DNA from: Caulobacter sp. X
Lineage (GTDB): Bacteria; Pseudomonadota; Alphaproteobacteria; Caulobacterales; Caulobacteraceae
Direction: 5' to 3'
DNA: 64,000 nucleotides
NCBI RefSeq assembly: GCF_002742635.1
Contig: NZ_PEGF01000002.1
Coordinates: forward strand, 1-64,000
Every line of letters begins with the position of its first letter. The stretch's first letter is position 1. A program made the translations under genes and the position numbers. Positions 54,081 to 59,579 of the stretch are shown piece after piece. The notes under the pieces were generated by a model that searched no databases, was not told the DNA's origin, and saw nothing but the letters and a program-made list of their open reading frames with translations.

Positions 54081-55109
54081 TTAAGCCGGCGTCTTCTGCT
54101 TGATCAGGCCCTTGTCGTGCAGCAACTGGGCGATCTGCACCGCGTTCAGGGCCGCGCCCTTGCGCAGGTTGTCCGAGACGCACCAGAAGACCAGGCCGTT
54201 CTCGACGGTCGGGTCCTTGCGGATGCGCGAGACATAGACCGGGAACTCGCCCTGGGCTTCCTTGGGCGTGATGTAGCCGCCGTCCTCACGCTTATCGACC
54301 ACGACGACGCCGTCGGCCTCGCGCAGGATCTCGCGGGCCTCGTCCTCGTCCAGAGGGCTCTCGAACTCGACGTTCACGGCTTCGGAGTGGCCGACCATGA
54401 CCGGCACGCGCACGCAGGTGGCGACCAGCTGGATGTTCGGATCCAGGATCTTCTGGGTCTCGGCGGTCATCTTCCACTCTTCCTTGGTGAAGCCGTCGTC
54501 CAGGAAGACGTCGATGTGGGGGATGACGTTGAAGGCGATCTGCTTGGTGAACTTCTTGGGCGGCGGGGCGCCCAGGACGTAGACGCCCTTGGTCTGGTCC
54601 CACAGCTCGTCCATGCCTTCCTTGCCCGCGCCCGAGACCGACTGATAGGTCGAGACGACCACCCGCTTGATCTTGGCCTCGTCGTGCAGGGGCTTCAGCG
54701 CCACGACCAGCTGCGCCGTCGAGCAGTTGGGGTTGGCGATGATGTTCTTCGGGATGCTGTTGACCGCCTCGGGGTTCACTTCCGGCACGACCAGCGGCAC
54801 GTCCGGGTCCATCCGGAAGTGGCTGGAGTTGTCGATGACGATCGGACCAGCCGCGCCGATCTTCTCGCCCCAGGCCTTGGAGATCGCGCCGCCGGCGCTC
54901 ATCAGCACGATGTCGACCTTGCTGAAGTCGAACTGTTCGAGGTCCTCGCAGCGCAGGATCTCGTTGCCGAACGAGACCTCGACGCCGATGGATTTGCGGC
55001 TGGCGATGGCGTGCATCTTGTCCACGGGGAATTTCACTTCCTCGAGGATGTTGAACATCTCGCGGCCCACATTGCCCGTCGCGCCGACCACGGCGACCCG
55101 GTAACCCAT
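54081..55109 (-). CDS. asd: Aspartate-semialdehyde dehydrogenase
   Basis: A 342-residue enzyme of the aspartate pathway leading to lysine, methionine, threonine and diaminopimelate. VAVVGATGNVGREMFNIL is the NADP loop, the catalytic Cys129 is in IANPNCSTAQL, and GHSEAVNVEFESPL contains the His region. ATG 55109 has AGGAGAGCG upstream; a longer frame from 55139 lacks family similarity. Confidence 0.96.
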   Translation of the reverse strand: MGYRVAVVGATGNVGREMFNILEEVKFPVDKMHAIASRKSIGVEVSFGNEILRCEDLEQFDFSKVDIVLMSAGGAISKAWGEKIGAAGPIVIDNSSHFRMDPDVPLVVPEVNPEAVNSIPKNIIANPNCSTAQLVVALKPLHDEAKIKRVVVSTYQSVSGAGKEGMDELWDQTKGVYVLGAPPPKKFTKQIAFNVIPHIDVFLDDGFTKEEWKMTAETQKILDPNIQLVATCVRVPVMVGHSEAVNVEFESPLDEDEAREILREADGVVVVDKREDGGYITPKEAQGEFPVYVSRIRKDPTVENGLVFWCVSDNLRKGAALNAVQIAQLLHDKGLIKQKTPA

Positions 55110-55231
55110 CGCGCTCTCCTGAAAACTCTGGTCCGCCACAGATCGCGGAGCGGCGTTCCGTTACGCCTCATGCCCCCTTTTCGCAAGGCGAGGAAAGCTG
55201 GCGCGGCGATCAGGCGGGCTGCCCCGAAGCC

Positions 55232-56566
55232 TCAGGGCTGGCCGCCCTGCGCGGGCTTGGCCGGTTCGGCGGGCGCGTCGTCGGTGAAGGTGAACTGGAA
55301 CGGCACCGTGAGCTTCAAGCCGTCCAGGGTGTCGCCCTCCTTGGTCCACGGGTTCATGCGCATCGCCGACGCCGCCTTGACGGCCGCCGCGCCGAAGTCG
55401 AGGCCCGCCGGACTTTCCCGAGAGGCCTGGCACTCGCTCAGCCGCCCTTCGGCGGTGACGACGCAGGTCGCCGCGCCCTGACCGGCCATCACCTTGGCCT
55501 TGATCGCGGCCTCCGGATAGATCGCCGCCATGCCCTCGGCCGTCAGGGTCGCGGTCCAGTGCGGCCTGGTCAGCTTGCGATTGTCGGGCAAGGCTGGGTC
55601 GCGGAAGCGGAACGGCACGTCGACCTTGTAGTCGCGGAGCTTCTTGTCGTTGGGGTCGACGGCGACCTGGAAGAGCTTCGACAGGTCCTGGGCGGCGCGC
55701 CCGAAGCCCTTGCCGCGCGGCTCTTCGGAGATGACGTCGCAGGATCGCAGCTGGCCGGTCCTCACCAGGAGGCAACGCAGGGCGACCTGGGCGTGCGATG
55801 CGCCCGCCGCGCTCTTGGGCCAGGCCGCGTTGAGCTCGGCCTGAGTCGGAACGCGCGTCCAAGGCGGATCGAGAACGACCGGCGTGCTGTTGAAGTCCGA
55901 GCCCGGGTTGGGCGCGCCCCAGTTGATGGGGATGCTGACCGTGCCGCCGGGCACGGGCTTGCCGCCCCGCATCATCGGCGTCATGCGCAGTTGCGGGGTG
56001 ATCTGCAGCCCGGCCGCGCCGAAGGCGTAGCCCTCGGGCGACTCGGTCAAGACCTTGCAGTTCTGCAGGAAACCTTCGACCGTCACGTCGCAGCCGATCA
56101 CCGCCTTGCCGCCGACGCCGTCAGCCAGCGCCTTCTTGGGGAAGACATTGGCGATGTCCTGGGGGGTTGGCCTGCGCAGCCAGTTCGGATTGGCGTCGCC
56201 GGGAGCGAGGAAGCTGAAGTACGTGCGCACGGGCCGGCCCACGACGGAGACGCCGGCGTCGTCCTTCGGCTTGATGCGCTCATAGCTCACGACCGACAGC
56301 GCCGCGGCGCCGAAGCCCTGTCCAGCCGGCTCCTCCCTGGCGACCTTGCAGTCGACCAGTTTTCCGCCGGCCGCCGCGACGCAATCCAGCGCCACCTTGC
56401 CGCTCGCGTTTGCCCCTTGCGGGTAGGCGGCCTTCATCTTGTCCGCCGGGATGCTGGCGGTGAACTGCGGCCGCCAACCGGTTTTGGAGTCCTCGTCCTG
56501 GGCCAGGGCGGACGTTGCGGACAGGCCGCCGATCAGCAGGCTAAATAGAATCGCACGCGACAGCAC
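55232..56566 (-). CDS. Secreted protein with four TonB-C-like repeats
   Basis: A 444-residue protein with a signal peptide (LSRAILFSLLIGGLSATSALA), followed by four related repeats of about 100 residues. Each has the pattern yP..A...G.a.l.C.v...G.l..C.v..E.P.G.gFg.Aa, ending in a beta strand such as VSIPINW or VPFQFTF. This is the TonB C-terminal fold. No membrane anchor or TonB-like Pro-rich linker is present, so it is unlikely to be a TonB energy transducer. The GTG start at 56566 gives a clean signal peptide; a start at 56605 would add 13 residues. Confidence 0.85.
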   Translation of the reverse strand: MLSRAILFSLLIGGLSATSALAQDEDSKTGWRPQFTASIPADKMKAAYPQGANASGKVALDCVAAAGGKLVDCKVAREEPAGQGFGAAALSVVSYERIKPKDDAGVSVVGRPVRTYFSFLAPGDANPNWLRRPTPQDIANVFPKKALADGVGGKAVIGCDVTVEGFLQNCKVLTESPEGYAFGAAGLQITPQLRMTPMMRGGKPVPGGTVSIPINWGAPNPGSDFNSTPVVLDPPWTRVPTQAELNAAWPKSAAGASHAQVALRCLLVRTGQLRSCDVISEEPRGKGFGRAAQDLSKLFQVAVDPNDKKLRDYKVDVPFRFRDPALPDNRKLTRPHWTATLTAEGMAAIYPEAAIKAKVMAGQGAATCVVTAEGRLSECQASRESPAGLDFGAAAVKAASAMRMNPWTKEGDTLDGLKLTVPFQFTFTDDAPAEPAKPAQGGQP

Positions 56567-56678
56567 CGGACCCCCCACGCAACTGGCGATGCGCTCGTGA
56601 CGCAACTCGACCCTAGGTCGAGCCTATGACAGCTTTTCGCGCGCCGCCAGAGGGTTTCCGAGGCTCGCCGGTCCCCCT

Positions 56679-59579
56679 ATGTTCGCGGCCATGACCGACG
56701 TCGTCTCCGAATCCCCGCCCGCCTCGCACCTGACCCAGGACGGCCCCGCCGTTCGGCTCTTCCTGGTCGACGGCTCGGCCTATCTGTTCCGGGCCTATCA
56801 CGCCCTGCCGCCGCTGACGCGGAAGAGCGACGGCCTGCCGGTCGGGGCGGTGCAAGGCTTCTGCAACATGCTGTGGAAGCTGCTGCGCGACATGCAGGGC
56901 GATACGCCCACGCACCTGGCGGTGATCTGGGACCACTCCGAGAAGACGTTCCGAAACACCCTGTACGACCAGTACAAGGCTCACCGTCCGCCGCCGCCCG
57001 AGGACCTGATCCCGCAGTTCCCCCTGGTGCGCGAGGCCACCCGGGCGTTCGGCGTGCCGGCCATCGAGCTGCCGGGCTACGAGGCCGACGACCTGATCGC
57101 GGCCTACGCCTGCAAGGCGCGCGAGGTTGGCGGCGAGGCGGTGATCGTCTCGTCCGACAAGGACCTGATGCAGCTGGTCGGCGACGGCGTGTCGATGTTC
57201 GACCCGATGAAGAACGTCCGCATCGAGCGCGAGCAGGTGTTCGAGAAGTTCGGCGTCTATCCCGAGCAGGTCGTCGACGTTCAGGCCCTGTGCGGCGACA
57301 GCGTCGACAACGTCCCCGGCGCCCCGGGCATCGGGATCAAGACCGCCGCCCAGCTGATCACCGAGTTCGGCGATCTCGACACGCTGCTGGCCCGCGCGGG
57401 CGAGATCAAGCAGCCCAAGCGCCGCGAGACCCTGATCAACTTCGCCGACCAGATCCGCCTGTCGCGGGCCCTGGTGAAGCTGGACTGCGACACGCCGCTG
57501 CCCGAGCCGCTGGACGACCTGAAGGTGCGCGAGCCGGACAAGGAGGTCCTGGCCGCCTTTCTCGAGCAGATGGAATTCCGGTCGCTGGCTCGCCGCGTCG
57601 GCGACGGTTCGGCCGCGGCTGTTCCCGGAACGCTCGACCGTCCGCCGAGCCAGCCAAAGGCTCCGGTCTCGACCGTCTCCTACATGGGCGCGGCCGCCCG
57701 CGCCGCGGCCCAGCCGGTGGCCGAGCCGGTGACGATCGATCACGCGGCCTATGCCTGCGTGCGCGACCTCGACACCCTGAAGGCCTGGGTCGAGAAGGCC
57801 ACGGCCAAGGGCGTGGTGGCGTTCGACACCGAGACCGACGCCCTGTCTTCGGCCACCGCCGGCCTGTGCGGCGTCTCCCTGGCGATCGCGCCGGGCGAGG
57901 CCTGCTACATCCCGGTCGGTCACTGCGAAAAGGAAGGCCTAGCGCTAGAGGCCGCGGCCGACCTCGTCCAGATCCCGTTGGCTGATGTGATCGCGACCTT
58001 GAAGCCGCTGCTGGAGGATCCGGCGGTGCTGAAGGTGGCCCAGAACGCCAAGTACGACATCGCCGTCCTGGCCCGCTACGGCGTCCAGGTGTCCCCGATC
58101 GAGGACACCATGCTGATCAGCTACGTGCTGGAGGCCGGCTTGCACGGCCACGGCATGGACGAGCTGTCGGAGCTGTGGCTGGGCCACAAGCCGATCCCGT
58201 TCAAGCAGGTGGCCGGGACCGGCAAGGCGCAGATCAGCTTCAAGCACGTCGCCTTGGCCGAAGCGACCGCCTACGCCGCCGAGGACGCCGACGTCACCCT
58301 GCGCCTCTACGAAGTGCTCAAGCCGCGCCTGGCCCGCGAAGGGCTGCTGACGGTCTACGAGACCCTCGAGCGTCCGATGCCAACCGTGCTGGCGGCGATG
58401 GAGAACGACGGGATCAAGGTCGACCCCGAAGCCCTGCGTCGCCTCTCCAACGAGTTCTCGCTGCGGATGGCCGAGTTCGAGGCGCGCGCCACCGAACTGG
58501 TCGGCCGCCCGTTCAACCTGGGCAGCCCCAAGCAGATCGGCGACGTGCTGTTCGGCGAGATGCAGATCAAGGGCGGCAAGAAGACCGCCACCGGCCAGTG
58601 GTCCACTGACAGCGACGTGCTGGAGAGCCTGGCGCTGGAGCATGAGCTGCCGCGCGTGCTGCTCGACTGGCGTCAGCTGTCCAAGCTGAAGGGCACCTAT
58701 ACCGAGAACCTGGTCGCGGCGATCGCCGAGCGCACGGGCCGGGTGCACACCTCCTACGCCCTGGCCGCGACGACGACGGGGCGCCTGTCCTCATCTGATC
58801 CCAATCTGCAGAACATCCCGGTCCGAACCGAGGAAGGCCGCAAGATCCGCAAGGCCTTCATCGCCGAGCCGGGCAAGGTGCTGATCAGCGCCGACTACAG
58901 CCAGATCGAGCTGCGCCTGCTGGCCCACATCGGCGACATCCCGCAGCTGAAGAAGGCTTTCCAGGAAGGGCTCGACATCCACGCCATGACGGCCTCGGAG
59001 ATGTTCGACACGCCGATCGAGGGCATGGACCCGATGATCCGCCGCCGGGCCAAGGCCATCAACTTCGGCATCGTCTACGGCATCAGCGCGTTTGGCCTGG
59101 CCAACCAACTGGGCATCGGCCAGGGCGAGGCCGGGGCCTATATCAAGACCTATTTCGAGCGCTTCCCGGGCATCCAGGCCTATATGGACGCGACCAAGGC
59201 CTTCGTGCGCGAGCACGGCTATGTGACGACCATCTTCGGCCGCAAGATCAACATCCCCGAGATCCAGGCCAAGTCGGTCGGCCAGCGGCAATTCGCCGAG
59301 CGGGCGGCCATCAACGCGCCGATCCAGGGCGCGGCGGCGGACGTCATGCGCCGGGCGATGATCCGCATGCCGGCGGCGTTGAAGGAGGCTGGCTTGTCGA
59401 CCCGCATGCTGTTGCAGGTGCACGACGAACTGGTCTTCGAGGCCCCGGAAGCCGAGGCCGAAACCGCGCGTGCGGTGATCGCCCGCGTGATGGAAAAAGC
59501 GGCGGAGCCGGCGGTCGCCCTGTCTGTGCCGCTCACGGTCGAGGTTCGGGCGGCGCTCAACTGGGACGAAGCCCATTGA
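56679..59579 (+). CDS. polA: DNA polymerase I
   Basis: A 966-residue repair and replication polymerase with all three domains. The 5' nuclease has LFLVDGSAYLFRAYHALPPL and LPGYEADDLIA. The 3'-5' exonuclease appears intact (VVAFDTETDALSS). The polymerase has motif A DYSQIELRLLAHIGD, motif B RRRAKAINFGIVYGIS and motif C LLQVHDELVFE. ATG 56679 or ATG 56691 could start it. It is divergent from the TonB-C-repeat gene. Confidence 0.96.
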   Translation: MFAAMTDVVSESPPASHLTQDGPAVRLFLVDGSAYLFRAYHALPPLTRKSDGLPVGAVQGFCNMLWKLLRDMQGDTPTHLAVIWDHSEKTFRNTLYDQYKAHRPPPPEDLIPQFPLVREATRAFGVPAIELPGYEADDLIAAYACKAREVGGEAVIVSSDKDLMQLVGDGVSMFDPMKNVRIEREQVFEKFGVYPEQVVDVQALCGDSVDNVPGAPGIGIKTAAQLITEFGDLDTLLARAGEIKQPKRRETLINFADQIRLSRALVKLDCDTPLPEPLDDLKVREPDKEVLAAFLEQMEFRSLARRVGDGSAAAVPGTLDRPPSQPKAPVSTVSYMGAAARAAAQPVAEPVTIDHAAYACVRDLDTLKAWVEKATAKGVVAFDTETDALSSATAGLCGVSLAIAPGEACYIPVGHCEKEGLALEAAADLVQIPLADVIATLKPLLEDPAVLKVAQNAKYDIAVLARYGVQVSPIEDTMLISYVLEAGLHGHGMDELSELWLGHKPIPFKQVAGTGKAQISFKHVALAEATAYAAEDADVTLRLYEVLKPRLAREGLLTVYETLERPMPTVLAAMENDGIKVDPEALRRLSNEFSLRMAEFEARATELVGRPFNLGSPKQIGDVLFGEMQIKGGKKTATGQWSTDSDVLESLALEHELPRVLLDWRQLSKLKGTYTENLVAAIAERTGRVHTSYALAATTTGRLSSSDPNLQNIPVRTEEGRKIRKAFIAEPGKVLISADYSQIELRLLAHIGDIPQLKKAFQEGLDIHAMTASEMFDTPIEGMDPMIRRRAKAINFGIVYGISAFGLANQLGIGQGEAGAYIKTYFERFPGIQAYMDATKAFVREHGYVTTIFGRKINIPEIQAKSVGQRQFAERAAINAPIQGAAADVMRRAMIRMPAALKEAGLSTRMLLQVHDELVFEAPEAEAETARAVIARVMEKAAEPAVALSVPLTVEVRAALNWDEAH

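Follow-up and report, generated by a model that had tools for sequence, protein, structure and literature searches.

A four-domain string of TonB C-terminal domains in an apparently exported Caulobacter protein encoded beside polA

TonB C-terminal domains (CTDs) are known from research on a motor whose working end they form. The TonB energy transducer is held by an N-terminal inner-membrane anchor that engages ExbB/ExbD, spans the periplasm with a linker that is usually rich in proline, and ends in a single CTD. The CTDs of TonB and TolA are described as binding their targets by strand addition in the part of the source available to us (PMC12204202). FusB, a TonB homologue and by description an inner-membrane protein, is reported in the accessible part of its paper to bind ferredoxin, a non-receptor protein (PMC13253070), and is a precedent for a TonB CTD with such a partner. 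The cyanobacterial TonB-like protein SjdR of Anabaena, once called TonB1, is linked to cell-wall structure; as far as its partial record goes, it shapes septal structures and is not involved in endogenous siderophore transport. Our search of titles and abstracts in the literature found no description of tandem or soluble strings of TonB CTDs, which does not prove that none exists.

In the window (the whole stretch of 64,000 nucleotides of Caulobacter DNA that was analysed), a gene divergent from polA encodes a protein in which this domain occurs four times (Table 1). With the energy transducer, for example the two TonBs of the same genome (L001, L002), the four-domain protein shares the CTD family (PF03544, TIGR01352), the predicted fold and the YP motif, but it has four CTDs instead of one, no periplasm-spanning linker, and only an apparent, predicted signal peptide in place of the anchor. 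The earlier note had proposed four tandem TonB-C domains behind a signal peptide, with no anchor and no proline linker, and its coordinates proved exact. The Pfam search found a single family, TonB_C (PF03544), matching four separate parts of the protein (84.7 bits, cut-off 24.6; E 6.2e-24), and TIGR01352 of NCBIfam also matched in four stretches. The N-terminal segment is the most hydrophobic part of the protein, and its orthologues likewise begin with a hydrophobic segment. It ends in a cleavage site read by eye, so that the signal peptide of the note stands as a prediction, cleavage included. Beyond residue 25 the Kyte-Doolittle mean over 19 residues peaks at 1.2, and the mature part (about 44 kDa) has at most seven prolines in any 30 residues, which agrees with the absence of a later membrane segment and of a proline linker. 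The first domain begins about 30 residues from the start, about 8 residues past the apparent signal peptide, and the GTG start shares its reading frame with the start region that relatives conserve. No Pfam domain besides TonB_C was found, for example no peptidoglycan-binding domain; a siderophore-receptor model matched below its cut-off (51.3 of 925 bits). Among the linkers, LAPGDANPxW and LDPPW, for example, hardly vary across an alignment of nine sequences. A defence role was set aside, as PADLOC gave no match for the protein. The 17-bp palindrome CTCGACCCTAGGTCGAG upstream of the gene was dropped as a conserved operator; it is recognisable in nearer relatives only.

Table 1. Features of the four-domain gene and its surroundings, in positions of the window
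Feature	Coordinates	Strand	Basis
Exported 444-aa protein, four TonB_C domains, GTG start	55232..56566	-	ORF, Pfam, NCBIfam, aligned relatives
Apparent signal peptide, residues 1-22, end Ala-Leu-Ala/Gln	56501..56566	-	read by eye; cleavage predicted only
D1, about residues 30-120, Cys62/Cys73; no counterpart in three-domain relatives	56207..56479	-	
D2, about residues 124-222, Cys159/Cys170; nearest to the genome's transducer-type CTDs	55901..56197	-	
D3, about residues 231-326, Cys265/Cys276; TonB CTD match when modelled alone	55589..55876	-	
D4, about residues 331-431, Cys368/Cys379; position-specific Trp (MRMNPWT...EGD)	55274..55576	-	
polA (DNA polymerase I), divergent neighbour, locus marker across the genus	56679..59579	+	
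asd (aspartate-semialdehyde dehydrogenase), downstream neighbour in nearer relatives only	54081..55139	-	
17-bp palindrome CTCGACCCTAGGTCGAG upstream of the gene, putative operator	56606..56622		recognisable in nearer relatives only

The AlphaFold2 model, built from nine sequences (mean pLDDT 82, pTM 0.70), has the TonB-CTD fold with four similar orders of strands and helices, and TonB CTDs ranked first when the full model was searched with Foldseek and VIA-align; we found neither a different fold nor, beyond the N-terminal segment with its predicted cleavage, a clear membrane anchor. By VIA-align, D2 aligned over 90 residues with the FoxA-bound TonB CTD (Z 10.9, rmsd 2.2) and over 81 residues with the BtuB-bound one (Z 10.0, rmsd 2.1). 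Because D2 filled the top structural rows of the full model, D3 was also modelled alone (45 sequences, pLDDT 88); its best match was the TonB CTD 1u07 (Z 9.2, rmsd 3.7 over 86 residues), with which 6fip ties. For D1 and D4 the fold is assigned from sequence and secondary structure only. FusB, compared at its CTD only, has the same fold as the D2 and D3 models by structure comparison; a sequence search of solved structures gave weak matches, the best being a FusB chain at E 0.013. Domain III of TolA, a related fold, appeared among the structural matches below TonB (Z 3.5-6.2), and no TolA model matched the four-domain protein in Pfam at E up to 1.

The paired cysteines that the earlier note saw in each repeat are there, yet they are not peculiar to the repeats. 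The two cysteines of each pair lie 11 residues apart (Cys-X10-Cys) across a predicted hairpin, and all eight are invariant among nine Caulobacter sequences (the four-domain protein and eight relatives). Both cysteines are kept in 168 of 168 aligned domains, that is, 165 array domains and three transducer-type CTDs, and in all but three of the array domains (162 of 165) they are spaced by 11. The same pair occurs in every one of the 26 anchored TonBs with a proline arm that were aligned from the genus (30 TonB loci minus four in which 40 residues held fewer than 10 prolines), so we regard it as a feature of the CTDs of this lineage and no longer as a mark of the repeats. Judged from their position in sequence and model, the paired cysteines would form disulfides. 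The genome also encodes an M56 (BlaR1-type) peptidase fused to TonB_C (PF05569 and PF03544; L003, 541-1743 on the plus strand, at C1:2097329), which differs from the four-domain protein in its peptidase domain and its single CTD; that CTD carries the same cysteine pair and is 47% identical to D2.

Upstream of polA, 70 of 75 genomes of the genus could be read (the window and 69 further stretches); of the other five, three gave no polA match and two had polA at a contig edge. TonB_C genes stand divergent from polA in 43 of the 70 genomes and are absent there in 27, and the array is therefore dispensable. By a profile built on these same domains, with Pfam as an independent check, 27 carriers have one four-domain gene (one of them cut by a contig end), nine have one three-domain gene and two a two-domain gene; one gene is frame-disrupted, and the remaining four genomes have two to four such genes each. 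The longest cluster, beside polA in genome G048 (L102/L055), consists of four consecutive three-domain genes overlapping end to start, in which Pfam counts 3, 2, 2 and 2 domains and our profile three each. Elsewhere (L103) two array genes lie about 2 kb apart. The two counts may also differ in single proteins: L063 has one domain by Pfam and two by our profile, and a gene in genome G015 (L071, 5978-7777 on the minus strand), in a stretch in which polA was not found, has four by Pfam and five by our profile. In one genome (G073) the gene is gone and asd directly follows polA, whose product is 96% identical at its N-terminus. In the 27 genomes without a gene beside polA, tblastn found no array remnant at E 0.01, three of the stretches searched being short (845, 1494 and 2733 bases). 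Named relatives of the protein were Caulobacter records at 48-84% identity. The array diverges faster than its neighbours: in one relative (L018) identity is 72% in the array gene, compared with 95% in polA and 89% in asd. Its dN/dS is well below 1 (about 0.17 and about 0.26 against two orthologues), which fits purifying selection on the gene.

The domain copies were compared by position, leaving out the frame-disrupted gene (L078), one with an unclear start (L098) and one at a contig end (L125), from the domain tree and identities as well as from the column and spacing counts. The 19 three-domain proteins match D2, D3 and D4 in order, with mean identities of 0.36, 0.35 and 0.43 that are the highest each time, and this position-matched identity suggests that each position has a function of its own. 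Spot checks of three-domain proteins from other genera gave the same order with one exception (L165), in which the last domain is 0.381 identical to D2 and 0.364 to D4. In two-domain proteins the nearest positions tie (0.276 and 0.273; 0.349 and 0.342). In the domain tree, the D2 class is nearly one group, in which 45 D2 domains are joined by the three transducer-type CTDs and a single further sequence. With this near exception the position classes are not recovered as clean clades: when the tree is rooted at its midpoint, members of the D3 and of the D4 class lie on both sides of the root, and 121 of the 168 tips descend from the common ancestor of the D1 class. The simplest reading is that a three-domain core would be older and that D1 was added to its N-terminus. 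In a protein of another genus with four TonB_C domains by Pfam (L168), the fourth domain, at the N-terminus, resembles D3 more closely than D1, and this suggests that it was gained separately.

The array domains retain the YP motif, with an aromatic residue in 159 and the proline in 161 of 161 domains. In the genus TonBs, the residue two before the tyrosine is basic in 24 of 26, and we derived the arginine at this place as a TonB feature from these sequences; it is mostly absent from the repeats. The same column is basic in 3, 0, 0 and 1 of 26 four-domain proteins at D1 to D4, and in 7, 1 and 0 of 19 three-domain proteins at D2 to D4. When any basic residue within five positions before the motif is counted, the numbers are 21 (mostly Lys), 2, 7 and 1 of 26 in the four-domain proteins, and 10, 2 and 13 of 19 in the three-domain proteins. 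A second basic column, after the motif, is occupied in 24 of the 26 TonBs, in 14 of 26 at D2 and in 22 of 26 at D4. The tryptophan of D4 is present in all 26 four-domain and all 19 three-domain proteins (45 of 45), where the TonBs mostly have Gln. Strand addition rests largely on backbone contacts, and such binding would not show in residue counts. In FusB, according to the available part of the paper, the receptor is paired with an arginine that precedes YP, though its position is not identical to our genus column (PMC13253070). Because the arginine before YP is mostly missing from the repeats and the FusB arginine pairs with the receptor, the TonB-box reading is weakened, most of all for D3, and these residue patterns make classical docking of TonB boxes by the repeats doubtful.

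The anatomy of the four-domain protein is secure, and from it we infer how it may work. The reading that we favour, while stopping short of calling it probable, is a motor-free, multivalent binder of peptide strands in the periplasm with position-specific partners. A transducer-type CTD would have been duplicated and its motor-coupling part lost, and the product would be a multivalent adaptor in the periplasm, stapled by disulfides and passive in that it is not energised. Much as TonB binds the TonB box, each of its domains would accept an extended peptide as one more beta strand, and each position would have its own speciality: TonB-box-like peptides may still be bound by D2, and D3 and D4 probably bind something else. 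We rank second, as unlikely, that the string is a decoy or buffer that binds free TonB boxes of the many TonB-dependent receptors and either competes with energised TonB or presents the receptors to it; the earlier note had already raised such binding and competition. The resemblance of D2 to the transducer-type CTDs of its genome (41% and 39% identity to the two TonBs, in addition to the M56 fusion), their place among the D2 sequences in the tree, the match of the D2 model to receptor-bound TonB structures, the YP motif with its nearby basic residues in D1, D2 and D4, and the at least 54 Plug domains of the genome are all in keeping with a decoy. On the other hand, it sits badly with the near absence of the TonB arginine and with the receptor contact of the FusB arginine. 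Receptor numbers speak on both sides. With a loose proxy, a first-look count of receptor candidates used because scored matches stop at 54, uncorrected for kinship and with the frame-disrupted (G012) and contig-cut (G016) loci each set at four domains, domain number rises with receptor number among the 43 carriers (rho 0.41, p 0.007), against rho 0.21 and p 0.08 over the 70 genomes; a clear dependence of the one on the other does not emerge. Receptors are few (37 candidates) in the genome that reaches the highest domain total (12), and the gene has been lost from a close relative in which 100 candidates were counted.

A structural role in the cell wall or envelope apart from import is ranked third, and we think it rather improbable. 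It is drawn by analogy from SjdR, which we liken to the array by description only and whose septal function outside siderophore transport, within the available record, gives the precedent, but Pfam showed no further domain that might hold the protein to the wall. It is very improbable that the signal peptide remains uncleaved and anchors the protein as a transducer working with ExbB/ExbD. The hydrophobic N-terminus could serve as such an anchor, but the Ala-X-Ala site read by eye, the lack of a proline arm to span the periplasm and the short distance of D1 from the start argue against it. Neither the polA neighbourhood nor a neighbour of about 450 residues found in a related group (see below) gave a functional hint for the array, and no binding partner of the protein emerged.

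If a peptide-strand binder is the right reading, the conserved motor-free strings would show a second use of the TonB CTD fold. It is possible, though doubtful, that in the Caulobacteraceae the tip of TonB became a free-standing, expandable module without the Ton motor, with one to four, perhaps five, domains per protein and up to four consecutive genes, which sorts or holds extended peptides of outer-membrane or periplasmic proteins. Such a module would be a warning for annotation that TonB_C matches are not all energy transducers, and the binding preferences of TonB CTDs could be tested on it in a soluble, multivalent form. Because domain number varies at one syntenic place in one genus, the relation of copy number to function is directly testable.

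Beyond the genus, 88 of 149 genomes of other Caulobacteraceae gave a match at 1e-25, many of the matches listed being single-domain stretches, and the three-domain core matching D2, D3 and D4 recurs among them. In a sample of 190 genomes of the class two matched, both of the family of the window. In a sample of 120 genomes of the order, searched at 1e-15, 37 matched; a single sister family (f147) accounts for 12 of these, with one match there covering query residues 125-403 and others about two domains. Tandem TonB_C proteins also exist elsewhere: in a phylum sample of 60 genomes searched with PF03544, which under-counts weak domains, one clear tandem pair outside the family was seen among the matches listed, in a single frame of 239 residues (G212:C1:421706-422269).

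The array adjoins polA in 3 of 20 loci from other genera. In 10 of the 20, the immediate neighbour of the array, in the same orientation, is the gene of a related protein, mostly of 437-477 residues (extremes 240 and 594). This protein of about 450 residues has no signal peptide by eye; Pfam gave no match for three members of its family, nor NCBIfam for one. It is present in 46 of 60 Caulobacteraceae genomes searched, and a second group of exported TonB_C proteins adjoins it: within the 1.5-kb flank of its gene, 15 of 30 fetched loci have an exported TonB_C gene with one, two or three domains and 15 have none. One member is L161 (3196-4575 on the plus strand); the homologue in the genome of the window (L204, C1:1206184-1207542; 52% identity) lies about 60 bp or less upstream of an exported protein with a single TonB_C domain (L007). 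The same genome encodes two near-identical exported proteins of 103 residues (L014 at C2:206090 and L015 at C2:1195138) that carry a single, weak cysteine hairpin of TonB_C type; in L015, TonB_C of Pfam is matched at E 0.064 and a T7 terminase fold, itself below cut-off, better at E 0.0004. Another exported-looking protein of about 376 residues (L005, 1459-2592 on the minus strand, at C2:835775) has two Pfam TonB_C stretches and, by eye, lacks the usual hairpin cysteines.
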